A DNA stretch of 31,020 nt from a virus (IMGVR_UViG_3300025087_000245:1-31020); one strand, 5' to 3'; positions 6,540 to 28,021 are shown, numbered from the stretch's first letter. The notes: a model not told the origin generated them from the letters alone. Program-made: numbers and translations.

Positions 6540-6655
6540 AAACAATCGCAATACTGTTAATAGTAGGCGCAATGTTTGTTCTTTCGGAAGTAAGCGTTCT
6601 TATCCGCTCTGCTTTTAGGAAATATTCGGCAGATAAAAAGGAGAAAACTAAATGA
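6536..6655 (+). CDS. Small single-pass membrane protein
   Basis: A 39-residue ORF overlapping the previous stop and the next start by ATGA on both sides. It starts MKTIAILLIVGAMFVLSEV, one hydrophobic membrane helix, followed by a basic tail. Its ribosome site (AAAGGAG) lies in the end of the upstream gene. Translational coupling with two lipoprotein genes suggests an envelope micro-operon. No family is recognised. Confidence 0.65.
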   Translation: MKTIAILLIVGAMFVLSEVSVLIRSAFRKYSADKKEKTK

Positions 6656-7882: not shown

Positions 7883-7901
7883 ACCAAAAAGGAGAATGAA
7901 A

Positions 7902-8702: not shown

Positions 8703-9161
8703 TTAAAATCTAAACTCCAATCCACTATAAAATCCGTATTCAAACTTCTTTTCATCAAAGTTATGTCCTGTAAATAGTCCTATATTTACTTTATCCCAAA
8801 ACTTCTGAGCTGTTTTAGGAACAAATAAGTTTGAATATTCTGTGAAAGTTGGGAAAGATAGAGCAATAAGTCTATCAATATGAATAGACCCGCCAAGAAC
8901 GCCTGTCCCTACCTTTTTTGCGTCAAAAGGAGTAACAAACCCAGCGTCTAACGTTAAAAATCTATACTCTACAAAAGGAGTAATAACCCCGCCTTTAGAA
9001 TCTCTGTTCTCAATAGAGAAGAAATATGCAGGTGTAGCTGATTCTAAAATTGTTAGTTTGGTTTGTTGACCAACATCGTTAAACAAGTCTCTGAAAGAAT
9101 ACGAATACCCAGCAGACACAATTCCTAAAAATAAACCTAACACTAATACCAGTTTTTTCAT
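8703..9161 (-). CDS. Putative outer-membrane beta-barrel or exported protein
   Basis: A 152-residue protein with a Sec signal peptide (MKKLVLVLGLFLGIVSAGYS) behind a good AAAGGAG site. The mature part has alternating hydrophobic beta strands (TPFVEYRFLTLDAGFVTP, NIGLFTGHNF, YGFYSGLEFRF) and ends in Phe, the C-terminal aromatic signature of outer-membrane barrels. Its size fits an eight-stranded barrel. It is the last gene of the late arm, after the lysis genes. A role in changing the host surface or blocking superinfection is inference. If the barrel reading is right, the host is Gram-negative. Confidence 0.65.
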   Translation of the reverse strand: MKKLVLVLGLFLGIVSAGYSYSFRDLFNDVGQQTKLTILESATPAYFFSIENRDSKGGVITPFVEYRFLTLDAGFVTPFDAKKVGTGVLGGSIHIDRLIALSFPTFTEYSNLFVPKTAQKFWDKVNIGLFTGHNFDEKKFEYGFYSGLEFRF

Positions 9162-9412: not shown

Positions 9413-9550
9413 ATTATCACCATCCTTTAATATTTTGTCTAGTTCATTCTTTGTTTTCAGTATAAACAATTTTCTCCTGAATCCGTCCTTCGGAATTCCT
9501 TTCAGTATCCATAAAATCATTTTTGCTTTTATCATATCTAAAAATTATAG

Positions 9551-10886: not shown

Positions 10887-11291
10887 TCATTGCAAAGATA
10901 AATATTCATTTTCCAGTAAATCTAATTCTTTTTTTATGGAATCAGTTGTAGTTCCTACGGAAAAACCATCTTTAATGTCCAACAAAGAATTGAACATTTG
11001 TTCCTTTAACTTTCTTCTTAGAATTCTTATTTCGTTTTTCCTAATATCGTTTTTTTCTGAAATGCTTTTATCTACAATACTTTCATCGGCTAAGTTAATT
11101 TTTTTGTTTTGAATATTATTTATTTTTTCGTCTGGTACATAAATTTTAACGCAATCTGTTGGTATGTTGACTTCATATCCACCAACAGTGGCTTGTAAAA
11201 TTTTTCCAGTTCCTTTATTAAAAACAATAGTCCCAGAAAATAAACTGTCTGTAATGCTAAATAAAAACAAAAATAATATTAATTTTTTCAT
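10887..11291 (-). CDS. Exported hypothetical protein
   Basis: A 134-residue protein with a Sec signal peptide (MKKLILFLFLFSITDSLFSG). The mature part begins with a small beta region (TIVFNKGTGKILQATVGGYE) and ends in a charged helical segment rich in Lys, Glu and Ile. AGGAG lies five bases before the ATG at 11291; an in-frame GTG at 11297 is too close. The frame overlaps the fiber gene stop. It could be a fiber chaperone or an envelope protein; no family is recognised. Confidence 0.65.
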   Translation of the reverse strand: MKKLILFLFLFSITDSLFSGTIVFNKGTGKILQATVGGYEVNIPTDCVKIYVPDEKINNIQNKKINLADESIVDKSISEKNDIRKNEIRILRRKLKEQMFNSLLDIKDGFSVGTTTDSIKKELDLLENEYLSLQ

Positions 11292-11293
11292 AA

Positions 11294-12847
11294 TCACTCC
11301 TCATATGATTGAAGCCAAACAAAAGCCTCTCCTGTCGCATTGTCTTCTCTATATTTAAAAGTTCTATTAGCATTAACCGCTCTGCTAAAATCAAACTTTA
11401 TAGATCCCACATTGGACAGATTGTTCCCAAACTGATATTCGCCAGCGTCGCTCGCAACAATAATATCGGCAGGTCTAAATGACCATCTAAAGCCAGATCC
11501 AGCACCTGACCCATTACATTCAATTTTATACGCGCCTGGAGGTACTTGGTTCTCCATATTCAAAAGTGTTTCTCCAGACAAATCTGCTGCATAAAAAAGT
11601 TGAATAGCTGTAAAATAATAAACGATATGACCAATTTTGTAAGTAGGCACAATATTTGATGAGCTATTATTCCTAACATGACCTATAAATCGCCATTTAG
11701 TATAACCACTTGGCATTGTTGGCCCTATCAATATAGATACATCTGCGCTACTAGCAATTACGCTCATTGTACTCCCATTAGATATTGCAAATAGTTTATA
11801 CCATGTACTTGCAGCTTCGGATCCTGTATCTAATCCTCCATCTCCATTTATATTTAAAAAACACGATGTTGCTATATTTGCATAATAATCGGACATAATA
11901 TTCATACCTAAAGATGTGATTACTATTTCATTTGTTCCAGAGCCATTGGTTGTAATGACTAAATTGTACATGATAGAACCTGTAGAAGCAGATGCAGGCA
12001 CAGAAAAAGCGCCTGTCCCATCAAGAAATTGAGTAGAAACATTAGAGAGTTTTGGTAAAAACCCGTGTCTTACTGTAGTAGCATTATTAGTTGTATTATC
12101 CGCTAACGTTATTTCTGATTCTATTATAGAAGCTCCTAATTTTGTCACAGAAGATGGATCCATATCTGCGTCGTCAATAAATCCATCAGACTGAGACTGC
12201 AACAACTGGCTCGCCCCGTTAAACGCATTCCCCTGCTTTGTCACAGATGACGGATCCACATCTGCGTCGTCAATAAATCCATCAGACTGAGACTGCAACA
12301 ACTGGCTAGCTCCGTTAAACGCATTCCCCTGCTTTGTCACAGATGACGGATCCACATCTGCGTCCTCAATGAATCCATCAGACCCTGTCTGCAATAGTTG
12401 ACTAGCTCCGTTAAACGCATTCGCTTGTAGTGTGACAGAAGAAGAATTCTGACGAGCATTAGGAATTGTTCCTAAGGTTAAATTAGTTGCATTTAAAGCT
12501 GTAAGTGTGCTGCCAACACCAACAAAACCAGTAGAAGATGTAAGTGTGCCATAAGAAGTAGCAGAAGACAATGTAATAATCTGTAGACCATCAGTTAGTT
12601 GACCTCTTTTTGTTACGCTTGACGGGTCTACATCCGCGTCGTCAATTAATCCATTGCCATCAGCCTGCAACAGCTGGTTCGCTCCGTTAAATGTATTTGC
12701 TTGTAATGTAACAGAAGAAGAATCTAGCCTTTCATTAGGCAAAATACCAGTATTAAGATTTGCAGCACTGTTTCTAAACAAATGAGTTGCGTGTCCTAAA
12801 TTATAAAAACATACTAGAACAAATCCAGTTAATACTATTTTTTTCAA
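11294..12847 (-). CDS. Tail fiber / receptor-binding-like protein with internal repeats and a signal peptide
   Basis: About 517 residues. The N-terminal half is built of repeats of the type SSSVTLQANTFNGANQLLQ, then DGFIDDADVDPSSVTK, the kind found in phage fibers. The C-terminal half contains a globular phage-tail type domain (ASTWYKLFAISNGSTMSV, then PSGYTKWRFIGHVR) that probably contacts receptors. Unusually, the protein starts with a convincing Sec signal peptide (MKKIVLTGFVLVCFYNLGHA). I chose the TTG at 12847 because AGGAGGTGAT, a near-perfect Shine-Dalgarno site, lies before it; a GTG at 12856 overlaps that site. It may be a fiber or a non-virion exported adhesin. Confidence 0.75.
   Translation of the reverse strand: MKKIVLTGFVLVCFYNLGHATHLFRNSAANLNTGILPNERLDSSSVTLQANTFNGANQLLQADGNGLIDDADVDPSSVTKRGQLTDGLQIITLSSATSYGTLTSSTGFVGVGSTLTALNATNLTLGTIPNARQNSSSVTLQANAFNGASQLLQTGSDGFIEDADVDPSSVTKQGNAFNGASQLLQSQSDGFIDDADVDPSSVTKQGNAFNGASQLLQSQSDGFIDDADMDPSSVTKLGASIIESEITLADNTTNNATTVRHGFLPKLSNVSTQFLDGTGAFSVPASASTGSIMYNLVITTNGSGTNEIVITSLGMNIMSDYYANIATSCFLNINGDGGLDTGSEAASTWYKLFAISNGSTMSVIASSADVSILIGPTMPSGYTKWRFIGHVRNNSSSNIVPTYKIGHIVYYFTAIQLFYAADLSGETLLNMENQVPPGAYKIECNGSGAGSGFRWSFRPADIIVASDAGEYQFGNNLSNVGSIKFDFSRAVNANRTFKYREDNATGEAFVWLQSYEE
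12145..12432 (-). repeat. Three 96-bp tandem repeats in the fiber gene
   Basis: GTCACAGA recurs at 12145, 12241 and 12337, giving an exact 96-bp period (32 residues). Two units are nearly identical and the outer ones have diverged; a further degenerate copy lies at about 12618-12720. The frame is kept, so unit gain or loss would lengthen or shorten the fiber shaft. Confidence 0.9.
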
Positions 12848-12859
12848 TTCTATCACCTC

Positions 12860-15800
12860 CTAATATTTTAATGTTTCTGGACTAATTAAAAAAGTCTGAT
12901 TAATCAGCTTAACATTATTGTCCAACCCAGAATCGTAGTATTTTAATTGTAAATATTTTCCATCAACGCCTAAATCAATTTTTTCATTTTTTATCATAGG
13001 AATATACGAATACCCATCTCCTATAATAGAAAAAATTTCTCTTGTTGGAATAAACTCGCTAACCAAATTGAAATTACTTTTTAACCTTTTCTGAATATAG
13101 TAGGTAGGGCTATTTCCAAGAGCATTGTCCGTAAATGGAATATAGATGTAACGTCCTCTTAATGCAATGTCTCCTTGTAGAGCGTAAGTACTCAAAGCAA
13201 CTGAATTTTTAGGTAGAACTGCTATTCTGTTTACTACATCCATATTACCCTTAAACCTTTTTTCTAAAATAACTTCCTGATGATTTTGAGATTGTTCTGA
13301 AATTTTGTTATATGCTGAATAAATAAAATTTTCGTCAATAACTAAAGAAGTATCTCCAATCGTATTGTAATCCACATCAATGGCACCTACTATTCCTAGA
13401 GTACTTACGTTTATTCTCTTATACCTATAATTACCTTCATCAGCAACTATAACATTATCCAGATCAGATCCTATTCCAGTGGCTTGGTGATAAGATGTTG
13501 CACCTCTACCTAAAGTTCCATTCATTCTTAAAAATCCAAGATTATTTTGAGAGTGTACTTTTACTCTTTCGTTCATCATGTCAACTAAAAACAGTTCATT
13601 GTTTTCATTAATAGCGTGCTGATGAGCAATATTAAAATTCGTAGTTCCTGATCCTAAACTACCGAAAGTTGAAAGTATAACGCCAAAAGGTGACCTATCA
13701 AATTTTACCAATCTATTATTTGTTCTATCTGAAAAAAATATAAAATCTTTATTTGCCGTTCCATTAAGAGGAAAATAATCAGATTCTATAAAAGTTGTAC
13801 TTTGAATTACGCTATAATCAATATCGTCAACTGTAGCTATACTCGCTGTAGAAACAAGACCTAAAACAATAATTTCTCTTGGCGTAGTTCTTTCAAATTT
13901 CCTAGTAGTTACTTTATTCCCAAAATCGTTATAAACATCTACAATTAACTCCGAATCAGGCGATTTTTCCATAGTTAATAAAAGTTGTCCTGATTTCTTA
14001 TGCGCCATTGTTCCAAAATTAAATAGTTTTACAAATCTATAAAAATTAACAGGATTCCTATCTTTTTCTTGAACAATTCTTATGTTATCAATAGAGATAG
14101 ATGATATATTAATTCCGTTTACAACAAATCTAATTCCATAATATGAAAGTGTATCCGCAAACGGAATTTCTTCAGAATCTAAGTCTGTCCAATCTGATCT
14201 TACTGGAAATGAAGACAACTGTATTCTTACTTGTGTCCAGATATTGTTCGATGTGTTAAGCACACCACTAGTAATAGTTACTGAAGTAAAATTTGTGTCA
14301 AATGCAGATTGAGATTCGTCATTAACCTCTAAATCTACTCTTAAATTCGTAATGTTACCTATACTGGTAGTATATATTTGGAATGAGAGATAATCATTTT
14401 TTGATATTTTTGTTTTGTCATACCATTCACCAATAGAAAAAATATTCATCCTAGTCATTGAAGATTCAGTCACAGAACTGTTGATCCACATTCTAACCGA
14501 TCCTGTTCCTTCAATTACGTTTGTTATATTTCTATTTACTCTTGTTCCAACCCATTGAGAACTTAAGTCCATTGTGTCAACAACTAAGTTTTTAGGTGAA
14601 TCGTCTGTCTGCTCTTCTACGTCTAATTTGTGTACTCTCCCTCCAACAGATTCACCATAAAGTAGCTGCCCAGTACCGTTAGGATCATCAAAAGACGTAA
14701 AAGATTTAGCCAACAAACCACAAAACGGATACCATTGGTCTAACCTAATATCATAAACAATAACAGAATTGTTTATACCTTTAGGAAATTTATCAGGATC
14801 TTCGTAAGACAAAATATAATATTCTTTTTTTTTGTAGTAATGCCCAACAATGTTTTTATATGTGCCAGCTTTTATTAATCTGGTAATCAATGTTTTTATA
14901 TTGTTGCTAATAATTCTGGATTCTTCCACGCTTGTTATTCTTGATCTTCTGCCACCATCATACCTCCTTATTCCGTCTTGAGAAGCAAAAATAAGAAATT
15001 GACCTGTATTGATAGCACTCCTAGGAGCAACTACTCCAAACCCAGAAACTAATTCGCTTATAGCTTGATCTCCTGTCCCAGGACTTAAAACTGAAAAAGA
15101 TAAGTCTTGAATAGCATTCTGTTGACCAACAATTACTCTATCAAAAATAACATCTAAACTATTAATATCAGAAGTTCTAAAATCTAAGAATCTGTTCCAA
15201 GCGTAACTGGAGATAGCTAAATTGTTTAGAGGAGAATTTAACAAAGAATAATAAATTCTGCTTGGATAGTAAGTAGTACCTTGAGTTAAAACTTGAGTAG
15301 AAGTGTCTATTAAAGCTACGTTTCCAAGTAATAAATAATTGTTCTTTTGAGCTACATATTTAGCTCTAACATTAATTGAATCTGTGCTAAGAGTAGTTTC
15401 AACAAGCGGAGCAAACGAAGATGTGATAATATTAAATCTGTATATTGGATTAACTAAACCATCCCCAGTCATAATCACACTATCGTTTATCGTAGTAAAC
15501 GACCAGTTTTGGTGTAGATTAATTGCGCTAGACAATGTAATCCAAACAGAATTAGTGTCTCCTGTACTATACACAATCTGATCTCCTATAACTGCTATAG
15601 TTATAGCTCTTGAGTAACTACCAGTAGAAGCATAAGCTCTATACAAAGCGTCAACGGAATGCGATGATCTAGGCTGCTCAACAAAAGGTTCTGACCCAGA
15701 CCTTTTTACCATCGAACCATCAGAATTAGATATACAGTTGCACATATCAGAACTTTCGTTATCTAAAATGTTTGTCACGTCTGTCTGATCGTTTACTGCT

Positions 15801-15883
15801 CTTCCAAAATCAATAGGCCCTATCTGAATAGGTTCTGCGTACGATAAAGAACAAAAGAATAGGAATACTAGACTAGTCTTCAT
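12860..15883 (-). CDS. Large gp10-like tail protein with lectin-like and NHL beta-propeller domains
   Basis: About 1007 residues. The first ~400 resemble podovirus tail/stabilisation proteins (SDMCNCISNSDGSMVKRSG near the start, IRRYDGGRRSRITS later). Residues about 430-630 look like a galactose-binding beta sandwich ending SSISIDNIRIV. The last ~300 look like NHL-type beta-propeller blades (FIFFSDRTNNRLVKFDRS, LFLVDMMNERVKV). The protein therefore probably forms part of the tail hub and may bind glycans. It begins with a Sec-like signal peptide (MKTSLVFLFFCSLSYAEP). The ATG at 15883 overlaps the end of the upstream gene by 11 bases, with only a weak GGAA site. Confidence 0.75.
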   Translation of the reverse strand: MKTSLVFLFFCSLSYAEPIQIGPIDFGRAVNDQTDVTNILDNESSDMCNCISNSDGSMVKRSGSEPFVEQPRSSHSVDALYRAYASTGSYSRAITIAVIGDQIVYSTGDTNSVWITLSSAINLHQNWSFTTINDSVIMTGDGLVNPIYRFNIITSSFAPLVETTLSTDSINVRAKYVAQKNNYLLLGNVALIDTSTQVLTQGTTYYPSRIYYSLLNSPLNNLAISSYAWNRFLDFRTSDINSLDVIFDRVIVGQQNAIQDLSFSVLSPGTGDQAISELVSGFGVVAPRSAINTGQFLIFASQDGIRRYDGGRRSRITSVEESRIISNNIKTLITRLIKAGTYKNIVGHYYKKKEYYILSYEDPDKFPKGINNSVIVYDIRLDQWYPFCGLLAKSFTSFDDPNGTGQLLYGESVGGRVHKLDVEEQTDDSPKNLVVDTMDLSSQWVGTRVNRNITNVIEGTGSVRMWINSSVTESSMTRMNIFSIGEWYDKTKISKNDYLSFQIYTTSIGNITNLRVDLEVNDESQSAFDTNFTSVTITSGVLNTSNNIWTQVRIQLSSFPVRSDWTDLDSEEIPFADTLSYYGIRFVVNGINISSISIDNIRIVQEKDRNPVNFYRFVKLFNFGTMAHKKSGQLLLTMEKSPDSELIVDVYNDFGNKVTTRKFERTTPREIIVLGLVSTASIATVDDIDYSVIQSTTFIESDYFPLNGTANKDFIFFSDRTNNRLVKFDRSPFGVILSTFGSLGSGTTNFNIAHQHAINENNELFLVDMMNERVKVHSQNNLGFLRMNGTLGRGATSYHQATGIGSDLDNVIVADEGNYRYKRINVSTLGIVGAIDVDYNTIGDTSLVIDENFIYSAYNKISEQSQNHQEVILEKRFKGNMDVVNRIAVLPKNSVALSTYALQGDIALRGRYIYIPFTDNALGNSPTYYIQKRLKSNFNLVSEFIPTREIFSIIGDGYSYIPMIKNEKIDLGVDGKYLQLKYYDSGLDNNVKLINQTFLISPETLKY

Positions 15884-17579
15884 TTTGTTCCGAATAAGCA
15901 ATTCTAGCCGCTTTACCTGAAAATGGAGAAATATATTTACTAGGAGTTCCTAACGTTTTAGATAATCCCTTAGCTGTTAAATTAGCTAATGGAGATGATT
16001 CTATAGCATTAACAATAGTGCTATAGATACCAAAAGGGAGTCTTGATCCTCCTTTTTTAGCAACTACTGGTAATAATCCTATTCTTATTCTTATCAACAA
16101 ACTCTCTTTGGCGGCTAATTTTCCAAGTTCAGGATCAATAGAATATAACTGCCTCCTCAAATCATTAGCCATTGCTTCGTAAGCAGACGCTTTTAATGCT
16201 GACTTAGAATCTACTGTTTTTAAATAAATATTCCCAGCCAAATCATCCATATTTCTTTTTAATTCCATAGCTCTTGTAATATCAACTACTTCTCCGTTTC
16301 TTTTAATAATCCCTTCTTGCATATTATTAAGTTTAGACAGAAAACCTTCTTCTGAACCAATATCCGATTTTTTCTTTAGTTTATTTAGAGTATCTGTAGT
16401 TTCTCTAAGATTAATTGTCCCTTGCCTTTGACCACCACCAACACTAAATTCAGGTAATGGTTTTAGACCTCTAACTGCTTTTCCAATTTCAGACCGCACT
16501 TTAGTTGCCTCTTCATCAGGAGTAAATCCAACATCATATTTTCTAGTAAATCCGCCTAATTCGCTAGGAGGATACAAAGATTCTTTTTTAGTCGTTCTAC
16601 CAATTTCTACGCCAAACACATCTTTCTCAATTTCGGTTACCTCTCGAGTAGTTTTAGGAATATTTGTTTTTGTAATTTTTTCAGAAATCGTAAAAGGAGT
16701 TCTAATTTGTTGACCAGAAGGTATACTAGAAGGTTTAATTGTTTGAATACTAGCTGGTTTATATTCTAAAGAAGGAATACCTTTTATATCAACAGAAGGA
16801 ATTAAAGGTTTTTGAATTAAAGCTCTATTTTCTTCAGTTATAAATCTAATTTGATTTTCTATTCTTGATAATTCTTCTCCAGCTATGTCATACGCTTCTT
16901 TCCTATTTTTAAATCCAATTATTTCTGGAAAATCTTTTAAAGTTTGAGATCCTAGAGATGGTTTTTTTTGTTCAGCTAGCTTTTCAGCTATCTTTGCATT
17001 AGTATTTATAAAATGATTAGTTATACTTTCAGATAAATCTCGTCCGAACAGTTTTCTTAAATATCCTAATGCTTGCCCACCCATAGCTAATCCAGAGAAT
17101 GTAATTCCACCTTTTGCCATGTCTTCAACTGTTTCTTTTACTGGCTTTCTTTTTATAGCGCCTTCAGTAGCTTCGTAGGTTAATCCTGTCCCTAAACTTT
17201 TACTAACCGATCTTCCTAAAGGACCAAGCGCTCTTATAGCTGGACTTACGCCAAACGCTGCGCCGCCAGTAGCTTCTGCCGCACCTAACTTTAAAGATTG
17301 ACCAGCTAGTCTTCCGAAAGCCCTCCCTGTTGCCATTTGAGGTGTTAAAATTTCTCCATCTAAACTTCTTTCCGAAGGAATACCAAATTCTTCCGCAAAA
17401 GATGTTCCAAATTCTTTTGCTTCTGGCGTAGTTGCTATTTTTTTAGTAGCTTTTAAAATTGGTAAAAACGGAACAATATTCTCTTTAAGTTTAGAAGTTG
17501 CAGTTTCAGCTAGGGTTTTAGGCTCTTCTGTTTCTACTTCAAAAGTCCCCTGATCTGTTTCTATTTGATAAACAGCCAT
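15873..17579 (-). CDS. Putative DNA-ejection / internal virion protein
   Basis: A 568-residue protein starting MAVYQIETDQGTFEVETEEP, a start I associate with podovirus ejection proteins (Y-x-V/I-x-T-x-x-G-x-Y/F-x-V). The region at about 85-175 is rich in Gly, Ala and hydrophobic residues (AGQSLKLGAAEATGGAAFGV), as in proteins that cross membranes during DNA entry. The remainder is charged and helical. Its start overlaps the upstream stop (TAATG). Order and composition support an ejection role; there is no catalytic motif. Confidence 0.6.
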   Translation of the reverse strand: MAVYQIETDQGTFEVETEEPKTLAETATSKLKENIVPFLPILKATKKIATTPEAKEFGTSFAEEFGIPSERSLDGEILTPQMATGRAFGRLAGQSLKLGAAEATGGAAFGVSPAIRALGPLGRSVSKSLGTGLTYEATEGAIKRKPVKETVEDMAKGGITFSGLAMGGQALGYLRKLFGRDLSESITNHFINTNAKIAEKLAEQKKPSLGSQTLKDFPEIIGFKNRKEAYDIAGEELSRIENQIRFITEENRALIQKPLIPSVDIKGIPSLEYKPASIQTIKPSSIPSGQQIRTPFTISEKITKTNIPKTTREVTEIEKDVFGVEIGRTTKKESLYPPSELGGFTRKYDVGFTPDEEATKVRSEIGKAVRGLKPLPEFSVGGGQRQGTINLRETTDTLNKLKKKSDIGSEEGFLSKLNNMQEGIIKRNGEVVDITRAMELKRNMDDLAGNIYLKTVDSKSALKASAYEAMANDLRRQLYSIDPELGKLAAKESLLIRIRIGLLPVVAKKGGSRLPFGIYSTIVNAIESSPLANLTAKGLSKTLGTPSKYISPFSGKAARIAYSEQNED

Positions 17580-18526
17580 TATCTAATCCTTTTAAAACTT
17601 TTTATTTTTATGTCTTTAGGTAATTGGTTTAAAATTTCTTCTGGTATTTCTTCTAAAGCGCTACTATTTTTTTCATTTAACAAAGGTAATGGATTTGATT
17701 TTCTTACTCTTTTTTTTATTCCTTCCACAGGAGAATATGTTTCAGTTAAACCTAAATAGGAGCTCTCAAAATTATCTTTTTTATCTTGTAAAATATCTAT
17801 CATCTTTCTAATTCTATTTATATTTGTTTTTTCATCTTTGTCTTCTTCTGGCATAATAGGCCCAAAAACTTCTTTTTCAGTAGGTGTAAATGCCGTCCCG
17901 CCACGCTCCCTAACAAAATCCGCAAACCCTAATCTAAGCGTAGTTAATATATCCTGCTCTTCTTTTGGAAGAGTACCTATAATTTCTCTAAATTTATTAT
18001 ATGGAGAACTAAATAAACCAGTTACATTAATCCTTTTTTTTATAGCCAAGTTTAATCCAGATTCTATATTATTAGCCAATTTAGTTTGATTTATTAAATC
18101 AGCATACTGAGATTCAATTTTTGGAGGAACAGTATATCTATCCCCCGTTTTTTTTCTCTCTTCTTGCTCTATCCTATTCTGTTCTTTTATATCTTGAAGA
18201 TCAACCATTCTTTCTGTTTGATCTTCAAATCTTTTACCAAATCTAACATCTGACCTTTCTTCTCTTTCTAGTTGACGAGACTCTACTCTTTTTTCTTTTT
18301 CTAACTGATTAAGATAATCTCTTCTTTTAGTAACTAGCCCAAGCTCATCAGGAGTCACTAATTCGTTTGGATCTAACCCTGTTTTAACACCACTAAGAGC
18401 CTCTACTCTACTAATCGGTATTCTTTTTCTTCGTTCTTCTATATCTTTTAAAGCATAAGGAACATAAACATCCCTTATTCCACCCAAAAATCCGCCTAGT
18501 CCAGCTAAAATATTATCATCAGCCAT
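17579..18526 (-). CDS. Putative ejection / internal virion protein
   Basis: A 315-residue protein starting MADDNILAGLGGFLGGIRDV, a Gly-rich hydrophobic start, followed by long charged helices (RDYLNQLEKEKRVESRQLER). I chose the ATG at 18526 because TGGGAGG lies upstream; the frame remains open to 18628, but that extension has no ribosome site and lies inside the upstream gene. It overlaps that gene by 8 bases. The function is inferred from its place among three helical genes between the adaptor and the gp10-like gene. Confidence 0.6.
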   Translation of the reverse strand: MADDNILAGLGGFLGGIRDVYVPYALKDIEERRKRIPISRVEALSGVKTGLDPNELVTPDELGLVTKRRDYLNQLEKEKRVESRQLEREERSDVRFGKRFEDQTERMVDLQDIKEQNRIEQEERKKTGDRYTVPPKIESQYADLINQTKLANNIESGLNLAIKKRINVTGLFSSPYNKFREIIGTLPKEEQDILTTLRLGFADFVRERGGTAFTPTEKEVFGPIMPEEDKDEKTNINRIRKMIDILQDKKDNFESSYLGLTETYSPVEGIKKRVRKSNPLPLLNEKNSSALEEIPEEILNQLPKDIKIKSFKRIR

Positions 18527-19175
18527 TCGGATACCTCCCAAAAGAAAGTAAACTTGGTCTAGTAATTCTTTCATAATAAGGATCACGCAAATTAGAAATT
18601 TCAGACTGAATCTTAGGACGGTTCGCATACCGTAAAGCGCCTACTGTCCCAGCAGTACCAACCAACCCAAACAAACTGTTGTATAGAGCAGATTGGTAGT
18701 TTGTTTGAGGTAAATACTGCTGTTGCAAATCTATTCCTCTTTGCCCATACAAATCCGCAAGTTCTTCTTTCCTTCTGCCAGAAGCTATATTTGCCTGCAA
18801 TTCTTCACCCTCAGCTCCTTGTCTCATTTTCTGCAATGCTACCTGTCTAGCATACTGTTCTGCTTCTTGAAGGTCTAACCCAGCCATTTCAGCTCTTCTT
18901 TTAGCTGTTTCGTATACCAAATTTATTCTTTGACGATTAGCCCCAAACCTTTGTCTTGAAAATGTCCGTTCAGACTCGCTAATTAATCCTTTAGAAACTT
19001 CAGGAATACTTCTAGGATCAATACCAGACAATCCTGAAAAAAATTGTCCTCTTGTCCTAGCCAAAAGTTCTCTAGCTCTTTTTTGGCTTTCTAAAGTTTT
19101 AGGAGTCAATCCTTGCAGATAAACGTCTGTTCCTAGCTCTGACCTTCTACGTTCTTCTTGCAAATCTCTAGGCAT
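18519..19175 (-). CDS. Putative ejection / internal virion protein
   Basis: A 218-residue, strongly helical, Arg/Gln/Glu-rich protein (RINLVYETAKRRAEMAGLDL, then QEAEQYARQVALQKM) with a short Gly-rich hydrophobic patch near the C-terminus (LFGLVGTAGTVGAL). The ATG follows the upstream stop directly. Composition and position suit a podovirus ejection protein; no conserved motif is recognised. Confidence 0.6.
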   Translation of the reverse strand: MPRDLQEERRRSELGTDVYLQGLTPKTLESQKRARELLARTRGQFFSGLSGIDPRSIPEVSKGLISESERTFSRQRFGANRQRINLVYETAKRRAEMAGLDLQEAEQYARQVALQKMRQGAEGEELQANIASGRRKEELADLYGQRGIDLQQQYLPQTNYQSALYNSLFGLVGTAGTVGALRYANRPKIQSEISNLRDPYYERITRPSLLSFGRYPNG

Positions 19176-20435
19176 TTACACTACTCCTTTACTACTAACA
19201 GTTGGCTGACCATACTTTGATCCAATATAAGTTCCTGCGATTGTTCCTACTGTGCTTCCTATATCGTTAAAAAATTTATCCTGCTGCTGTTGTCTTCCAT
19301 AATCTCTTTCTGATCTTAATCGCGATTCCTGAATTCTGCTCTGCCTTTCTAAATCTCTGCGATATGATTCTTCTTCATACCTACGTCTTAAATCTGCCTG
19401 TGTTCTTCCAAACGATATTTGCTGCCTTTCTAAAGCTGTTCCACGCTCTGAAGCTAAACTTTCAGAAATTCCTCTACCAGCTTCTATCTCTTTTTTAAAA
19501 GTAGTCTGATACGCAGCATTTTGAAAAAACAGATCGTCTTCTTCCTGCAACCTTAAATATTCTTGCTCAGTTCCAGACTGAATTCCAGCCGCGCTTCTGG
19601 CTAATTCGCTCTGTAAATCGCCACTATAAAGTAACCCTCTAACATTAAGATTCTCAGCTATTTTAGGAGCTATTTGTTCTTGAAAGTATCTACCTCCATA
19701 CTCTTGCTCTCCTGCTAAAAATTCTTCTCTTCCTCTACCAAGTTCGCTTTCAAGTCCAGACTCGAACTGACTAAGTTCTTCTTCTCTCTGTCTCTTTAAT
19801 CCTCTACCTGAAACTATATCTTGAATGCGTTTTACATCTTCACCAGTTTCTGGAGATGTTTTTAAAAATTCACCATAAATATTACCCTCTCTTAAAGGAT
19901 TTATTACATCTATATTTAGAGGAATAGCACCTCTTTCTAATTGAGACGGTTCTGGCAACCTTTTATTATTTTTTAAATATTCAAGTACAAACCTTGCGTT
20001 TCTCTCCGCTAGAGGAATATCTTTTTCATTGCCCTTATCAGTCTTGTATGACTTTTTAAATTTATCTAGTAAAAAATTATATAGTTTCTGTTCATCTAAT
20101 CCTGTTTCTTTTATTCCACCCAATTCTCCATACAAATTTAGTCTCTCTTGTAACTCTTCATCGGTTAGTTCTGGCTCTTTCCCTATATCTGTTTGTCCCA
20201 AGAATTGTTCATACGCCTGTCTCTTAGAAGGTAACGAGCCAATTATCTGCTCAAGTAACGGAAGAATACCTTTACTTGGCTTCGTAGCTAACTTAGCTCT
20301 TGTTTCTGGAGATAAGTTACCTGTAGATTCTATCTCGTCAAGCAACGTATCTATATCTATTTGTCCACCACGCTCTCTAGCTAACGACTCTAAAACTTTC
20401 TTGTCAGAAGATTCAACTCTATATCGTCTAGCCAT
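19176..20435 (-). CDS. Putative ejection / internal virion protein, coiled-coil rich
   Basis: A 419-residue charged helical protein. The middle contains RYFQEQIAPKIAENLNVRGL with LYSGDLQSELARSAAG, and the C-terminus is an extended Arg/Glu/Gln coiled coil (YEEESYRRDLERQSRIQESR) ending in a small Gly-rich patch (VGTIAGTYIGSKYG). The patterns Y-S-G-x-x-x-x-x-L and the Gly-rich tail occur in phage internal proteins. The start overlaps the stop of the adaptor gene (TGATG). Confidence 0.6.
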   Translation of the reverse strand: MARRYRVESSDKKVLESLARERGGQIDIDTLLDEIESTGNLSPETRAKLATKPSKGILPLLEQIIGSLPSKRQAYEQFLGQTDIGKEPELTDEELQERLNLYGELGGIKETGLDEQKLYNFLLDKFKKSYKTDKGNEKDIPLAERNARFVLEYLKNNKRLPEPSQLERGAIPLNIDVINPLREGNIYGEFLKTSPETGEDVKRIQDIVSGRGLKRQREEELSQFESGLESELGRGREEFLAGEQEYGGRYFQEQIAPKIAENLNVRGLLYSGDLQSELARSAAGIQSGTEQEYLRLQEEDDLFFQNAAYQTTFKKEIEAGRGISESLASERGTALERQQISFGRTQADLRRRYEEESYRRDLERQSRIQESRLRSERDYGRQQQQDKFFNDIGSTVGTIAGTYIGSKYGQPTVSSKGVV

Positions 20436-21526
20436 CAGATATATGCTCCTCTACTATTTATTTCTGGTCTAAACTGTTTGTATCTAGGAACAGATGTCAT
20501 CATTCCTTTTAAATCGTTAATCCTAGCTCTTGCCAACGCTTGTTTATTAATCCATTTTGAATCATCTAAATCAGAAAGACGGTCTGCTTCCGCTAAATCT
20601 AAAATTGCAGGATCAAACTCTTCTGGAACTTCAGTAGAATCTTCATCTTCGTTTACCATGTCATACACTCTTTTTATGTATGTATATGGAAAAATATATG
20701 TGTCATTTGGATTCAAAAATAGTTGAAACCCTAAATTGTCCTGCTTCTTAATTTCGTATTCTGTTCCTGAAGGAACAGTAGATTTCGCAAAATTTATTAG
20801 TCTAATTCTTGTATCAGACTCAACTCTCTTAACATGATATCTGTCTTTTCCAACTATAAATAAATCCCCTTCTTCAACATTATCTAACCAAGATGTTCCA
20901 GACCCAGTAACTAAATCATCATCTTCAGTTAAACTTACTGATCCTGTAGTATAAGAACTCTCAAACTGGTTTTTTCCTAACATTAAAAACTGTTCTGGCT
21001 CACCAGTATTACTAATCTCAGAATTCAATTCTCTAATATGATGAAGCGATCTTTCTCTAATAATTCCATCATTAATCCAACTACCAAACTCTAGTATCTT
21101 CTTAACTTCGCTTGGAAAATAATAAAATCTGTTCCAAATCGTAAAAGTCCTAGAACTAGCCGTATCTTCTTTAATTGCAGAATAAAGAGTACATTCTGTA
21201 GCGGATACTCTACGTCTAATTCTGTACCAATTTTTACTATCTTGCGGTTGAAAATAACGTCCTTCCATTGCTGTAGTTATACTTGCCGCTCCACCAAAAG
21301 TAACCGTCCTACTATCAACAGTAATATTACAAGTGCCAGTAATATAATTTTCTATAGTTCTAATCTCTCCAGTTCTAATCAAATGTTGCCAATTAATACT
21401 AGAATTATTGCAAATCTCTTTATACGATTTATTGATCTTACGAGCCGCTAAAGTCCTATACTCAAGAACTTTTTTATCTAGTTTTATACGATCGCAAAGT
21501 TCGTCTATGAAACTTCCAAAAAGCAT
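20435..21526 (-). CDS. Head-tail adaptor / tail-tubular-A-like protein
   Basis: A 363-residue protein. The N-terminal helical part (YRTLAARKINKSYKEICNNS, then INWQHL) resembles adaptor proteins that bind under the portal. The middle has the small beta element GSVSLTEDDDLVTGSGTSWL, EEGDLFIVG and YHVKRVESDTRIRL, often seen as an insertion in these adaptors. The C-terminus is helical (LADLDDSKW-like segments). It lies between head genes and ejection genes, as expected. Family assignment is by pattern only. Confidence 0.65.
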   Translation of the reverse strand: MLFGSFIDELCDRIKLDKKVLEYRTLAARKINKSYKEICNNSSINWQHLIRTGEIRTIENYITGTCNITVDSRTVTFGGAASITTAMEGRYFQPQDSKNWYRIRRRVSATECTLYSAIKEDTASSRTFTIWNRFYYFPSEVKKILEFGSWINDGIIRERSLHHIRELNSEISNTGEPEQFLMLGKNQFESSYTTGSVSLTEDDDLVTGSGTSWLDNVEEGDLFIVGKDRYHVKRVESDTRIRLINFAKSTVPSGTEYEIKKQDNLGFQLFLNPNDTYIFPYTYIKRVYDMVNEDEDSTEVPEEFDPAILDLAEADRLSDLDDSKWINKQALARARINDLKGMMTSVPRYKQFRPEINSRGAYI

Positions 21527-21527
21527 T

Positions 21528-21944
21528 TTAGTCTTTTGTCCCTCTACTTTCTTGACCTTTAGGCGGAGATGTTACCCAGTTCCATCTTACCCGTATTGCC
21601 CCAGTCCCTGTTTTTGTAACTATCAAACCATATCCTAATTGTTCTCCTATTGGAAAATAATCACCAGTAGTATCAATATCATAAACCGTAGAAGTTGATC
21701 CTGAAAAACCAACCGCTGTGTCTGAAGAATTTCTGTATTGAAACTGCGCTGTATCAGCAGTAGTTCCAGAAGTCACAGTAATATCTGCAATAATAATAGC
21801 TGAAGTTGCTACTCTAAAATTAGCTGTAGTTCCAGAAATTTCTGTTGATCTCCATAATTTGTAATCTCTTAAATCATATCCAGCATACAATTTAGATTGA
21901 TACAAACTAACTAAAACCACTAAACTAAATAATATTTTCTTCAT
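21528..21944 (-). CDS. Small beta-rich head/decoration-like protein with a signal peptide
   Basis: A 138-residue protein. After a Sec-type signal peptide (MKKILFSLVVLVSLYQSKLY, cleavage likely at LYA-G) comes a compact beta domain (ATSAIIIADITVTSGTTADT, and YGLIVTKTGTGAIRVRWNWV near the end). The ending resembles the protein at 23730-24221 (GLFFFKTSG ... VKWRR), so the two may share a fold. AGGAGGG lies upstream of the ATG. A virion role follows from position; the signal peptide is unexpected for one. Confidence 0.6.
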   Translation of the reverse strand: MKKILFSLVVLVSLYQSKLYAGYDLRDYKLWRSTEISGTTANFRVATSAIIIADITVTSGTTADTAQFQYRNSSDTAVGFSGSTSTVYDIDTTGDYFPIGEQLGYGLIVTKTGTGAIRVRWNWVTSPPKGQESRGTKD

Positions 21945-21954
21945 AAATTCCCTC

Positions 21955-22173
21955 CTATTTTAATTTTTCTTCTAAAATTTTTAGTCTGCTATCAATCTCT
22001 TTTAAGGACTCTACAACCAAAGCCTCAAATCCTCTAAGAGTAAAAGCCCTTAAATCAGCTAGAGTCCTACACTGCATCATAAATTTTGAGCTAAAAGAAC
22101 TTAACGCTTGCGAGTATTCAGTATTAGCAAGAGTAAGAGTTAAATTTATTATTGTAGGAACAGAAATTGACAT
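21955..22173 (-). CDS. Small phage protein with a truncated beta domain and coiled-coil end
   Basis: A 72-residue protein. The first half (LTLANTEYSQALSSFSSKFM, then MQCRTLADLRAF) resembles a common phage head-associated beta domain with A-N-T-E-Y-S-x-x-L ... F-x-x-Q-x-R. The second half (LVVESLKEIDSRLKILEEKL) is a short coiled coil instead of the usual remaining strands, suggesting a fusion or truncation. No strong ribosome site is seen. Confidence 0.55.
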   Translation of the reverse strand: MSISVPTIINLTLTLANTEYSQALSSFSSKFMMQCRTLADLRAFTLRGFEALVVESLKEIDSRLKILEEKLK

Positions 22174-22175
22174 AA

Positions 22176-23313
22176 TTAGACTAACACCAGATTGCGCTTA
22201 AATAAACTCTCATACGCATTTTTGTATTGAACTATTTCTTTATCTAAACTGTAGTTCTCTTCTATTTCTTTTCTTGCATTCTTACCAATTAATCCACGAG
22301 TCTCCTTATCATCAATAAGCAATTCTAAATATTCAACCCACTCATCTTGATTAGAAGCTAAAAGCCCAGTTTTGTTGTGATCTATATTTAAATTGTATGG
22401 AGGAATATTGCTTGCAACGCAAGGTATTTCTAAAGACCCATACTCTTCCCACTTAATCTCACTTTTACAATTAGAAAAAGAATTGGTGTATAAAGGAGCA
22501 ATCCCTATATCTATATTCAACGATTTAAATTTCCACGGATACGATTCTACAGACATCCACTTTTCAATAATAATTCTATCCTTGTCTATCCCTTTTAACG
22601 AACCATCATAATGTTGTCCCATAATTACAAGTAATACATTTTTGTGTTTGTCCATAATTTTAGATATAGCTTCTTTTATTTCTATAAAATCTTCATAATG
22701 TGACCACCCACCCTGATACCCAATCCTAATATAATCGTCTTTAACTAAATTTATAGGAAACCAAGTTTCAAAATCAATAAAATTCTTTATAACCTTCACA
22801 TTCTTAGCTCCACGCATTTTAAACATTCCAGATAAAATAGGGCTTGGAGTAGTAATTAAATCAACTGCTCTGATTGTTTCTTTGAAAATTTCCATTTTTT
22901 CTTGGTTCTTCAAAATGTCAAATCCGTCTCGCCCATGTTCCCATAACGAAACCTTTTCATCATTATCCATTACCACATAAACAGACTTTGTTCCGTGATC
23001 CTTGTACGCAGGATTGTAAGGACTTATATCAAAAATATTATCATCATAATCTAAAACAAATTTTTTCTTTCCTTTATTTTCTAGCACATAGTCAAGATAC
23101 TTTTCGCTTGTAGCACATTGCGATACAATCACGTCACTTACGTCTGTCCATAGTTCCTGTTCATCCATATTTTTAAGCATGGAACTAGACGCGCAAGGAA
23201 AATAATCTTTTTTAGATAATTTTCTGAACGGCTGAGCAATCCTATAAAAATTGCAGCCATTCTTGTATCCTTCTACAGCATATACTTGTATTAAGCCGTT
23301 TAAAATTTTGCAT
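22176..23313 (-). CDS. Glycosyltransferase (GT4-like), apparent frameshift near the start
   Basis: The part from 23180 down encodes 334 residues of a GT-B-fold glycosyltransferase: IRIGYQGGWSHYEDFIEIKE with a Gly-rich turn, a VLLVIMGQHYDG strand, IGIAPLYTNSFSNCKSEIKW followed by EYGSLEIPCVASN, the donor-binding region. Upstream of 23180 the same frame continues with clearly homologous N-terminal sequence (QVYAVEGYKNGCNFYRIAQP) but has no ATG; the only ATG with a ribosome site (GGAGG, at 23313) is one base out of frame. One A too many in CAAAATTTT at about 23302-23310 would explain it; an ATT start is the alternative. It probably modifies virion proteins or host glycans. Confidence 0.8.
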
Positions 23314-23326
23314 TACCTCCAATCAA

Positions 23327-23671
23327 TCAATCAATTACCCTTAAATCTCCAACTTCGTTCTTAAACCTTTTCAGAAATTTGTCCTGCTCTTTTGCTCTGT
23401 CTTTGTACGGAATTCTAGGATCAAAATATTTTCCATACTCTTTATCAAACACTATCCATGTAGGAATACTAGCAATAGCTCTCCTAGTTCTACTATTTGA
23501 CCATCCATTATTAGCTAACCTATTTAGACTTCTTTGTTCTTTACAGTTTTTTAGAGTATCTTGTAGTTCCTGCATTCTTCTTTTTCTAACTTCAATCTTA
23601 TAAATATTAATTTGATTTATTAATCCAATCATTGATTTTGCTTCTTTATTATCGCAGCTTGCTAAATATGA
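23327..23671 (-). CDS. Hypothetical phage protein
   Basis: A 114-residue basic, helical protein starting MSYLASCDNKEAKSMIGLIN. The C-terminal half has SIPTWIVFDKEYGKYFDPRI. I chose the ATG at 23671 because GGAGG lies four bases before it; the frame is open to 23713, but that extension would run into the large hairpin. No family is recognised. It lies between the head-surface gene and the glycosyltransferase. Confidence 0.6.
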   Translation of the reverse strand, partial: SYLASCDNKEAKSMIGLINQINIYKIEVRKRRMQELQDTLKNCKEQRSLNRLANNGWSNSRTRRAIASIPTWIVFDKEYGKYFDPRIPYKDRAKEQDKFLKRFKNEVGDLRVID

Positions 23672-23687
23672 CATACTACCTCCAAAG

Positions 23688-23724
23688 TTAAGAGGGAGAT
23701 GACATTTTGCCATCTCCCTCTTAA
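23688..23724 (-). terminator. Perfect 14-bp hairpin after the head-surface gene
   Basis: TTAAGAGGGAGATG (23688-23701) pairs perfectly with CATCTCCCTCTTAA (23711-23724) around a 9-base loop, starting 5 bases after the stop of the gene at 23730. On the late strand the hairpin is followed by only a short AACTTT, so it may be a partial terminator, attenuator or RNA-stabilising end that lowers expression of downstream genes relative to the capsid genes. Confidence 0.65.
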
Positions 23725-23729
23725 AAATA

Positions 23730-24221
23730 TTATCTACGCCACTTAACTACTCCTCTAACTGCCTCTCCGCTGCTCCCTGATGTTTTAAAAAAGAACAATC
23801 CGTTTATAAACCGAATACCAACACCAGCAGCATCCGTTATATCGAAAGTCTTTTCATAATTTCCCCTACGAGGTTGAGCCGTACTAGCAGCAACATCTCC
23901 AGAAGTAATTGTTGCAGAGGATTCAAACATTACCGCAGGAGTAACTCTTTGTCCAGATTCAAACGTAGAATATGCAATAGATGCAGCAACAACCGTATCT
24001 AACACAATAGCCCAGTCCAAAGAAGTGTGAGCTCCAGAAGATAAATAAAATCCTCCAAACTCACCTGAACCTGTGGCGACAGTTCCAGAAGCAGCCGCAA
24101 TAGCTGTATAGTTCCATCCTCTACCACCAGCTACTAACCCTGATAAAATATCAGCATATGCTGCCCGATTCATTATAAATAATGAACCTATAAAAAAATA
24201 AAATAATAAGTATTTTTTCAT
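23730..24221 (-). CDS. Head-surface/decoration-like protein with a signal peptide
   Basis: A 163-residue protein directly downstream of the major capsid gene, the usual place for a head decoration protein. The mature part (WNYTAIAAASGTVATGSGEF, and a closing IRFINGLFFFKTSG) is small, beta-rich and Ser/Thr/Ala/Gly-rich, as expected for one. It begins with a clear Sec signal peptide (MKKYLLFYFFIGSLFIMNRA, cleavage likely AYA-D) behind a strong AAGGAGG site, so the start is well supported. A strong hairpin follows the stop. Confidence 0.7.
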   Translation of the reverse strand: MKKYLLFYFFIGSLFIMNRAAYADILSGLVAGGRGWNYTAIAAASGTVATGSGEFGGFYLSSGAHTSLDWAIVLDTVVAASIAYSTFESGQRVTPAVMFESSATITSGDVAASTAQPRRGNYEKTFDITDAAGVGIRFINGLFFFKTSGSSGEAVRGVVKWRR

Positions 24222-24233: not shown

Positions 24234-25104
24234 TTATGCTGAAGCAGTTCCAGTAATCTTTCCACTGGAATTCTCTGCTAGATATTCAAGAGTGTATTCA
24301 CTCTCTACATAACCTCTTCTTTGGCCACCCACTTTACCAACCTCTTCAAAGAAAAGAGGTCTTAAAAATGCAACGCTAAAATACTCTTCTTGCAAAATAG
24401 AAACTTGAGTCGCAGGCATATTTCTTTCAAGATAAATGTCCATAGGCCCGAAATCGCTATCGTACCGATCTACAGCAACAGTACGTTTTTTGCCATTAGC
24501 ATCAATGTTTCTATTTAGTGGAGCAGTCCATGAAGAAATAGTTCTCTTATTGAACCCTCCAACATAAACAGCGTTCGGTTTACCGCCAGCTGTCCATATG
24601 TCTTGCAAAACGCTATTAAACACAGTTTCGTCTAATGGTAAACTGTTTGCAGAACCAGTATTAGTTGTAATAGCTGTAAGTATGCCATTAAGTGTTCTTG
24701 CTGTACCTGAAGCGCCTGAAGCAGAAGCTTGGTTTATAAGAGCTGAATTCATATCTCTTGCCAACTCTTTTGTTTTAATCATTCTCTGATGGTCAAACTC
24801 TGTTCCACTGACACCAGCTTTATTAACCTCGTCTTGTGTATAAGAGCTACTAAACTCTTTACGGGAAATTTGGGTATAGTTAGTAACCCTAACCCTCTCA
24901 GTAACATCACCACTAGCAAACGCCGCTGTTGATCCTTCTACCTCCGCATTTCCACTATCAGCTGCTTGTAGAGATTCTGTCAACCATTCATGAGTTCTAT
25001 GAGTAGCTGTTTTCTTCCCAATTCTAGACATAGTTACCGTTTCTTCTGGAGAAATATTGGTAATCAAATTTATTAAATCTTCTCTATTACCTACAGCTCT
25101 ATAA
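24234..25104 (-). CDS. Major capsid protein, 3' exon (DUF5309-like)
   Basis: About 289 residues with the DUF5309 capsid pattern: YRAVGNREDLINLITNISPE at the start, then ETVTMSRIGK, THEWLTESLQAA, EVEGSTAAF, a Gly/Ala middle, and PNAVYVGGFNKRTISSW later; it ends in a Ser/Thr/Ala-rich tail. The conserved N-terminal part is present in frame only from about 25104; upstream the frame hits a stop at 25110-25112. The frame has a TTG at 25067, but this would remove the conserved NRED segment. The likely true start is the ATG at 25863, joined after removal of the intervening sequence. Confidence 0.85.
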
Positions 25105-25843
25105 CTCAGTTATGTTATCATTGGCTTTCTATTTCCAATATCCACTTATTCCTAAGTGGCTCAGGTCATGTCATCCCTTTCGGGTGGGTTATTTGTGTCT
25201 TTTATATTTATTCAAGACTGACCGTCACACACGCCCGAGAAGCCTTTCGTAATCTTCTCTGCTGGCTCGAAGTTGTCCGTTCTGGATATTCTTCGAATTA
25301 AACCCATTCACAGATAAACAAGCATGATAAGCAGAATGACAAGAACGGCAAAGAATAACTCCATTCCAAACATCAAATCGTAATTCTTGATATTCCTGAT
25401 AAGATTTAATGTGATGTGCTACTCTTTGATTAGTTGATCCGCAATTCACGCAAAAAATATCTCTATTAAATATAAAGTCTTTCCAATTTTTATATCTAAC
25501 AGTTGTCCTTTCAAGTTGAACTGCTTTTGTTCTTCCGCCTTGCCAATTCGGATTATTTTCTCTAATTGTCCAGTATCTGCTCTTACCTTTAGATGCTAAG
25601 GACATTTTCAGTTTATGTTCTTCTGAAAATTTCTTTCCTTTTAAGTATGAACTTTGTGTTCGAGTTTTTATATTATGTTTATTTAACCAACTAAAAACTC
25701 TTGAAGAAGAAACTTTAAGTTCATCAGCAATATATTTCATTGTTCTACCATTACAAACATATTGCTGGTATAACCAATCTTTATCCTTCAATTCTGGACA
25801 CGGAGAATATCTCATGCTAATTTATTGGGACTCTTCCGAATCT
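25105..25843 (-). mobile_element. Intervening sequence in the capsid gene (probable self-splicing intron with HNH ORF)
   Basis: About 740 bases separate a capsid start codon with ribosome site (25863) from the rest of the capsid frame. The segment holds an HNH endonuclease gene and, after it, about 120 bases rich in hairpins on the late strand, for example CCACTTA-GGAA-TAAGTGG, ATTGG/CCAAT and CCC-GAAA-GGG. A join after 25844 to 25104 gives MGQNNYI-YRAVGNRED in frame and ends the insert with G, as in group I introns. The 5' end can also pair (TGGGAC with GTCCCA). Exact boundaries and class are not settled. Confidence 0.6.
25225..25815 (-). CDS. HNH homing endonuclease
   Basis: A 196-residue protein. 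The N-terminus has a helix-turn-helix (MKYIADELKVSSSRVFSWLN), then a NUMOD3-type DNA-binding motif (KGKKFSEEHKLKMSLASKGK). The nuclease part is CVNCG, VAHHIKSYQEY, WNGVILCRSCHSAYH, a zinc-structured HNH fold with catalytic His in the HHI. Such enzymes cut intron-less copies of their target gene to spread their intron. It lies inside the split capsid gene. No good ribosome site is present, which is common for intron-encoded endonucleases. Confidence 0.9.
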   Translation of the reverse strand: MRYSPCPELKDKDWLYQQYVCNGRTMKYIADELKVSSSRVFSWLNKHNIKTRTQSSYLKGKKFSEEHKLKMSLASKGKSRYWTIRENNPNWQGGRTKAVQLERTTVRYKNWKDFIFNRDIFCVNCGSTNQRVAHHIKSYQEYQELRFDVWNGVILCRSCHSAYHACLSVNGFNSKNIQNGQLRASREDYERLLGRV

Positions 25844-25886: not shown

Positions 25887-26612
25887 TTATTTTGCCATAC
25901 CAGCTTCTTGAGCGTCAGAAATTCCTTTTAAAAGAGAAGATAAAGCTTCTTTTGGATCTTTACTTTCTTTCCAATTTATCAATTCTTCTCTACTCTGCGT
26001 TCTTGGCTGTCTTGATCCGCCAACTTCTAAAAATTGCTTTTCTTTTTCTGCGATAGCCTTTTCTCTATTAGAAAGATGTTCTTCATGCTTCATCAGTTTG
26101 TACGCTTTTTTAGCTCTAGTAAGAAGTCTCATAGACGCTTCTGGATCAACTTTTCTCATAAATTTTTTGATCTTTGGATAAAAAGTGTCTATATCAGACT
26201 TCTCTTGTTCAGCCATCTCCTCTACAAACTCTTCTGCATACGACAAATCAAGAGAATCTAGTTCAGCTTTACTTACTTCTTGGCTAATACCTTTATTAAT
26301 TTCTAGCCAAGCTTTAGACCGTTTGTCTCTACGGATAGCAGTAATCTGATCTTGTAAACTGTCAAGCTCGTCTTGCTGATCTCCAGTTAAACGTTTCTTG
26401 TTTTCAAGCTCATCTATCCTCTCTTGTTTCTCTCTAATTTCTGAAACCTGTTCTCGCAAATCAGAAATAGCTTTATCTTTTTTCTTTAGCAGATCAATAT
26501 ATTTCTCTTCACTTTTTAACGAGCCTTTTTCACCCTCGCTCGAATCAGGGGAGTTAAGAGAATCTTCAGATGACAAATCTGAATCTGTCATGTCTTCTTT
26601 TTCTGGCAACAT
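25887..26612 (-). CDS. Capsid scaffolding protein
   Basis: A 241-residue protein, very acidic at the N-terminus (SDLSSEDSLNSPDSSEGEKG), with a long coiled coil (KAISDLREQVSEIREKQERI), a helical middle and a basic C-terminal region. This composition and the position between portal and capsid genes are typical of phage scaffolds, which guide procapsid assembly and then leave. TGGAGG precedes the ATG. No protease motif is present. Confidence 0.8.
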   Translation of the reverse strand: MLPEKEDMTDSDLSSEDSLNSPDSSEGEKGSLKSEEKYIDLLKKKDKAISDLREQVSEIREKQERIDELENKKRLTGDQQDELDSLQDQITAIRRDKRSKAWLEINKGISQEVSKAELDSLDLSYAEEFVEEMAEQEKSDIDTFYPKIKKFMRKVDPEASMRLLTRAKKAYKLMKHEEHLSNREKAIAEKEKQFLEVGGSRQPRTQSREELINWKESKDPKEALSSLLKGISDAQEAGMAK

Positions 26613-27756: not shown

Positions 27757-28021
27757 GTTTTCCCTCCAAAAGTTCCGCATATAATCTTCTTACATAACTA
27801 TCATTTTCTTTGTTTATACGTTCAGGACTTTTTAAACAAAATCTTATGCCAGCAATGACTCCGTCTTGGAATATACGAGTGTTCACATCTATATTCTGGC
27901 CTACTGCTGGCTCAAAATATATTAACTTATCTTCTAGTTCCTGCTTAAACCATTCCCATCCTTCACTAACCAAAAACTGTTCTGTTATTCTAACCTTCTC
28001 TTCTTTTGTATATTTTCTCAT
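27746..28021 (-). CDS. Conserved small phage protein downstream of the portal
   Basis: A 91-residue helical protein with EGWEWFKQELEDKLIYFEPA and IFQDGVIAGIRFCLKSPERI. A W-x-x-F/L-x-x-x-L start and a D-G-V-I-A-G-I-R segment ending in P recur in small phage proteins found between portal and capsid genes. Its start overlaps the portal stop (ATGA type) and its end overlaps the next gene. Confidence 0.7.
   Translation of the reverse strand: MRKYTKEEKVRITEQFLVSEGWEWFKQELEDKLIYFEPAVGQNIDVNTRIFQDGVIAGIRFCLKSPERINKENDSYVRRLYAELLEGKHGS

Follow-up and report, generated by a model that had tools for sequence, protein, structure and literature searches.

Sec-type leaders on outer virion genes of a short-tailed-type phage and a possible periplasmic step in virion completion

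The locus described here raises the question of why genes for the outer parts of a tailed-phage virion should begin with export signals. The window, that is, the whole stretch of DNA analyzed (IMGVR_UViG_3300025087_000245:1-31020), is a 31,020-base virus fragment with 35% G+C. A minus-strand cluster carries genes for the portal, a scaffold-type protein, the capsid, an adaptor-type protein, internal-virion candidates, a nozzle, a fibre and a lysis region (Table 1). The virus, known solely through environmental DNA, is a short-tailed-type phage whose capsid protein belongs to the SU10 family. The first-pass annotation had claimed Sec leaders at six gene starts (24221, 21944, 15883, 12847, 11291 and 9161, which also serve as gene names below), and a Sec-type leader is present at each. 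Predicted export of the leader-bearing proteins is strongly supported at the sequence level. With a probability of about 0.5, we propose that outer and tail parts would be exported by Sec and stored in the periplasm, and that the virion would be completed once lysis breaches the inner membrane.

The leaders have the features of Sec signal peptidase I substrates: a positive n-region, a hydrophobic core and an A-X-A-like site, which is weak in 11291, alone among the six, and in the nozzle of the relative G001 described below. With a slash marking the predicted cleavage site, they read MKKYLLFYFFIGSLFIMNRAAYA/D in 24221, MKKILFSLVVLVSLYQSKLYA/G in 21944, MKTSLVFLFFCSLSYA/E in the nozzle gene 15883, MKKIVLTGFVLVCFYNLGHA/T in the fibre gene 12847 (which has a TTG start and the junction NLGHA/THLFRN), MKKLILFLFLFSITDSLFSG in 11291 and MKKLVLVLGLFLGIVSA/G in 9161. 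The last two had been said to share the pattern of the four main genes. Both do carry leaders, with the reservation just given for the site of 11291, but 9161 does not stand as a virion-type gene; its product is probably an outer-membrane barrel of the lysis region and not a virion part. Ribosome sites of the AGGAGG type are found, as had been stated, in three of the four main genes. The nozzle gene lacks such a site but begins within the end of the upstream gene, as in both relatives considered below, and is thus probably coupled to it in translation. In the leader genes of the window and G001, no ATG past the cleavage site is preceded by a ribosome site. The sole candidates for leaderless starts are weak TTG codons in 12847 and G001:11078, and internal starts yielding leaderless proteins were rejected because no suitable codon has a good ribosome site. 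Both relatives give good support to the view that the leaders are genuine, sit on virion-type genes and did not arise from misannotation.

Leaders were called with a scorer of our own that weighs n-region charge, hydrophobic core and cleavage site, calibrated on 105 labelled genes of E. coli K-12. It was positive for 18/18 exported proteins, 3/4 lipoproteins, 3/55 cytoplasmic proteins and 12/28 inner-membrane proteins, and it therefore cannot separate an N-terminal anchor from a cleaved leader. Among comparison phages with the same capsid family, 7 of 648 genes scored positive; of 687 pseudo-starts placed inside window proteins, 1 did. Within the window, leaders occur in 6 of the 21 late genes (Fisher p 7e-7 against control genes); the raw positives, 7 of 21, include the holin-like gene 9224. 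The corresponding values for the two relatives are 5e-7 (G001, six leaders) and 5e-6 (G212:C117, four leaders). Control genes, pseudo-starts and orthologues together reject chance hydrophobic starts.

The first relative, G001, is IMG/VR contig 3300020202_000049, a record of 40,589 bases with repeated ends that includes a large terminase gene. Its identity to the window ranges from 62% (nozzle) through the portal and adaptor values of Table 1 to 79% (capsid protein). All five G001 orthologues of window leader genes keep the leader, among them those of 24221 (37280-37744, 41% identity), 21944 (961-1359, 40% identity) and 11291 (11078-11521, leader MKRYALAFLLIPSILCA/E), and the scaffold orthologue is leaderless. 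A sixth leader opens a further fibre gene, 39985, which spans the record ends. The leader letters of window and G001 are only 20-48% identical, and the leader type is kept nonetheless. In simulated neutral drift at matched divergence it survives in 3 to 28% of simulations, depending on the gene, and in all five genes together with a probability of about 2e-5. Directly past the predicted site the mature starts are conserved between the two phages, as E-P in the nozzle and THLFRN in the fibre. A tyrosine-integrase-like gene, recognized by motif, and a nearby CsgG/LpoB-like lipoprotein (location given as L013 14860-15831, 16347-16883) suggest that G001 may be temperate.

These data bear on the reading that the leaders are uncleaved signal anchors, which would hold nozzle, decoration and fibre proteins in the inner membrane, where heads would be completed. 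Many N-terminal anchors do pass the scorer, and the two weak cleavage sites fit such a role. Most of the leaders, however, are 16-23 amino acids long with a short hydrophobic core and an A-X-A end, as is typical of cleaved signal peptides, and the conserved mature starts begin just past the site. Moreover, the membrane would still part anchored periplasmic domains from cytoplasmic heads. We consider signal anchors unlikely; assembly at the membrane, one of the explanations first offered, stays among the candidates.

In the nozzle the leader is an added segment, a point for which a comparison with homologues had been asked. Residues 33-390 of the G001 nozzle match positions 13-341 of the profile phrog_3287 (virion structural) with an E value of 9e-20, and since the match starts at residue 33 the leader lies outside the nozzle family. 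The window nozzle has no phrog_3287 match of its own at 0.1, but is tied to the family by its identity to the G001 protein. None of 13 nozzle-family relatives with complete starts in the comparison phages has a leader, and the same holds for the proteins annotated as 'phage stabilization proteins' in two Manatee Spring phages, one of which has the motif NCI..DGS..KR.G in common with the window nozzle. Gene order and the N-terminal motif agree with a nozzle of the P22 gp10 / T7 gp12 type. The window nozzle has in addition a C-terminal NHL-type propeller region at residues ~720-840, which matches NHL at positions 722-841 of the profile and has its best PDB match at E 4e-17. It also shows weak similarity to a xyloglucan-binding domain; shorter nozzles have neither. 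Two more distant capsid relatives have a single leader each: in L019 on the gene directly before the adaptor, which is the place of 21944, and in L018 on an internal-virion-like gene.

The second relative came from a capsid-family search of 341 Elusimicrobiota genomes, in which the family was present in 16. The best match, G212:C117 (65% G+C), belongs to a very distant phage placed in a genome bin of the Elusimicrobiota, and the composition of the contig fits that bin (r 0.86). Leaders open its post-capsid gene (2312-3169), its presumed nozzle (5199-8153) and two fibres (19935-20906 and 20881-23655), and its scaffold-type, capsid and adaptor genes are leaderless. The first of the leader-bearing fibres matches many phage tail-fibre families as well as collagen repeats. 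Because the nozzle similarity is weak by sequence, its identity is drawn also from its place after the adaptor and from the motif FGGLNL.SD.T.I, common to G001. By these assignments the leader-bearing classes are alike in all three phages: the post-capsid gene, the nozzle and one or more fibres. No further relatives of the G212 nozzle or capsid were found among viral contigs, and a nozzle profile search of the 341 genomes returned G212 only, the other matches being NHL repeats of cellular proteins. Leaders as a habit of all Elusimicrobiota phages were rejected: the other readable SU10-capsid regions in these genomes have no leaders on structural genes.

The host of the window virus is tentatively placed within the Elusimicrobiota. 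The repeats of fibre 12847 match a surface-type protein of the Elusimicrobia assembly L100 (65% over ~31 residues), with weaker matches in other phyla. When 20 kb of the window was compared blind with the 341 genomes, 22 short DNA matches turned up, spread over 21 of them. The leader-coding stretches of 11291 and 21944 account for 14 of these matches, and among the 12 matched places retrieved, 7 coincide with the beginning of a cellular gene that carries a Sec leader. Such short AT-rich matches are no proof of a host, but they show that the phage leaders resemble real cellular ones. No convincing portal match or spacer was found in the 341 genomes, a capsid search in genome contigs gave no match for the window host, and composition is ambiguous (best r 0.53). 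The probable outer-membrane barrel suggests a two-membrane host.

Two further readings meet their evidence here. The hydrophobic N-termini might act in the virion and not as Sec signals, for instance as membrane-inserting peptides at entry; short-tailed phages have to get through membranes, a task in which hydrophobic segments can help. Against this, an n-h-c pattern with A-X-A sites is common to five or six unrelated proteins, and several leaders resemble cellular signal peptides at the DNA level, which makes the idea very improbable. Hardly better is the suggestion that the leader-bearing genes encode host-surface or lysogeny proteins lying among virion genes. The barrel-like 9161 and the occurrence of the fibre repeats in a cellular protein speak for it, but the nozzle orthologue matches a virion protein family, the leader-bearing G212 fibre matches phage tail fibres, and places in the virion operon are kept across three phages.

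What distinguishes the leader-bearing genes is their class. Within the virion cluster, leaders are confined to the post-capsid gene, the nozzle, the fibre and two small proteins, whereas the inner components are leaderless: the capsid protein, adaptor and scaffold in all three phages and, where present, the portal and internal-virion candidates. Three explanations had been offered, of which late addition after opening of the inner membrane fits best, because leaders occur only on parts that would join the filled head late or from outside and never on inner parts; surface display could suit the fibres but not the nozzle. In the proposed sequence of events, leaders would be cleaved and the proteins would build up in the periplasm of a two-membrane host, while DNA-filled heads with portal and adaptor would form in the cytoplasm. 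A holin would then open the inner membrane and let the heads reach the nozzle, decoration and fibre proteins in store, and the particle would be finished in the periplasm or at lysis. We infer leader cleavage and the place of final assembly; the probable outer-membrane protein and the holin and lysin genes of the window count in favour of this scheme. Stated more broadly, it is a real if tentative possibility that this is a tailed phage that finishes its virion outside the cytoplasm, Sec-exported nozzle, decoration and fibre proteins being added to filled heads after the membrane opens, so that closing and arming would be spatially apart from packaging.

Surface display also figures in a dual-targeting reading, in which leaders are inefficient and assembly proceeds normally from protein that mostly remains cytoplasmic, the part that is exported having another use such as surface display, receptor blocking or superinfection exclusion. 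This would spare the usual cytoplasmic assembly route, and it gains from the likeness of the fibre repeats to an Elusimicrobia cell-surface protein and from a probable outer-membrane barrel that is also phage-encoded. The leaders are well formed, however, without good leaderless alternative starts, and dual targeting leaves unexplained why nozzle and decoration genes have leaders and inner components none. We regard it as rather unlikely, though of some weight.

Several points weigh against completion of the virion after export. The evidence comes from sequence, and virion membership of 24221, 21944 and 11291 is drawn from position only. The nozzle must close the filled head, and efficient export would therefore leave cytoplasmic heads open until lysis; the lysin has no leader, so that the membrane would open only late. 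Scorer positives include N-terminal membrane anchors, as the 12 of 28 inner-membrane proteins of E. coli illustrate. The match between the G212 and window nozzles is weak (hhalign E 0.0065, probability 6%), the AlphaFold predictions have pLDDT values too low to use (28 for the nozzle, 35 for the decoration protein), and the assignment of the window host stays tentative.

Table 1. Features of the window, in order of the minus-strand cluster
Feature	Coordinates	Strand	Evidence and remarks
Portal protein, no leader	28018..30063	-	weak phrog_332/phrog_1216 matches; 63% identity to G001
Scaffold-type protein, no leader	25887..26612	-	precedes capsid gene; acidic helical; G001 orthologue 35614-36342 leaderless too
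Major capsid protein (main part), no leader	24234..25067	-	PF17236 SU10_MCP E 1.3e-75; phrog_1328 E 6e-72
Leader-bearing gene directly after major capsid protein, decoration-type by position, 163 aa	23730..24221	-	leader; GGAGG ribosome site; orthologues
Leader-bearing gene directly before tail adaptor gene, 138 aa	21528..21944	-	leader; AGGAGG ribosome site; orthologue
Tail adaptor-type protein, no leader	20435..21526	-	70% identity to G001 1359-2447; role assigned by gene order
Internal-virion (ejection) candidates, four genes, all leaderless	19176-20435, 18519-19175, 17579-18526, 15873-17579	-	19176 weakly matches phrog_4295 (internal virion)
Tail nozzle / stabilization-type protein, 1007 aa, 16-aa leader	12860..15883	-	62% identity to G001 nozzle
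Tail-fibre-like protein with leader and repeats, 517 aa	11294..12847	-	similarity to phage tail fibres over residues 334-459
Leader-bearing small protein, 134 aa	10887..11291	-	leader; G001 orthologue 11078-11521
NlpC/P60 lysin, no leader	9551-9997	-	PF00877 E 5e-8
Holin-like membrane protein	9224-9535	-	PF04531 E 0.02
Leader-bearing probable outer-membrane beta-barrel, lysis region	8703..9161	-	strand-like EYGFYSGLEFRF end, C-terminal Phe

The capsid protein scores 255 bits against PF17236, above the family cut-off of 24.1. Its gene is split in the window, with a first exon at ~25863-25837 (MGQNNYIDS) and the remainder from ~25103. An HNH/NUMOD3 endonuclease gene (25225-25815) sits in the interruption of ~735 bases, for which no Rfam intron family match was found; the G001 capsid gene is uninterrupted. 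Glycosyltransferase genes lie between the capsid and adaptor genes in the window (22176-23180, minus strand) and in L019 (9964-11106), likewise in G001 and L018. On the plus strand of the window, the product of 4057-5583 bears, in its N-terminal half, a long array of short Ala/Thr-rich repeats (AATDAATYAATR and so on) and has a weak DUF6745 match, and the small genes 6342-6539 and 6652-7002 open with lipoprotein-like leaders (LSSCC, LLTGCS).

In the textbook picture, tailed phages are assembled in the cytoplasm, tail completion included. An export leader on the nozzle conflicts directly with this, since a filled head without its nozzle is not closed. No tailed phage is known to us whose nozzle and decoration proteins carry Sec leaders. 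The open-licence literature searched describes no signal peptides on virion proteins of tailed phages; the matches concern endolysins, filamentous phages or secretion systems. A periplasmic step, once shown, would make this an assembly route of a new kind. If virions are indeed completed in this way, cytoplasmic defence sensors would not meet the tail proteins, adhesins would be unable to act inside the producing cell, and lysis would be coupled to particle completion. Leaders on virion genes also provide a sequence marker to seek in other uncultivated phages.

Among known systems, SU10-type capsid phages (PF17236) with a phrog_3287 or P22 gp10-like nozzle share with the window the capsid family, the order portal-scaffold-capsid-adaptor-nozzle-fibres and the motif NCI..DGS..KR.G, but in these relatives the nozzle is leaderless, as are almost all surrounding genes. 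In filamentous phages (Inoviridae) the coat proteins are exported by Sec and then assembled at the inner membrane. The likeness lies in virion proteins with signal peptides and in assembly outside the cytoplasm; proteins and particle are unrelated, however, and filamentous phages are extruded without lysis and have no terminase-filled capsid. A filamentous identity was rejected, given the icosahedral capsid protein and portal in the window and the large terminase in G001. The Elusimicrobia surface protein with the SSSVTLMGNTFNGANQL repeat in L100 has a leader and repeats resembling those of fibre 12847, but it is cellular and stands in no phage context in L100. Signal-peptide endolysins such as Lys44 of phage fOg44 leave the cytoplasm through Sec before lysis and are kept in store outside it (PMC6116005). 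Unlike the proteins considered here, Lys44 is a lysis enzyme and not a virion part, and the lysin of the window is itself leaderless.

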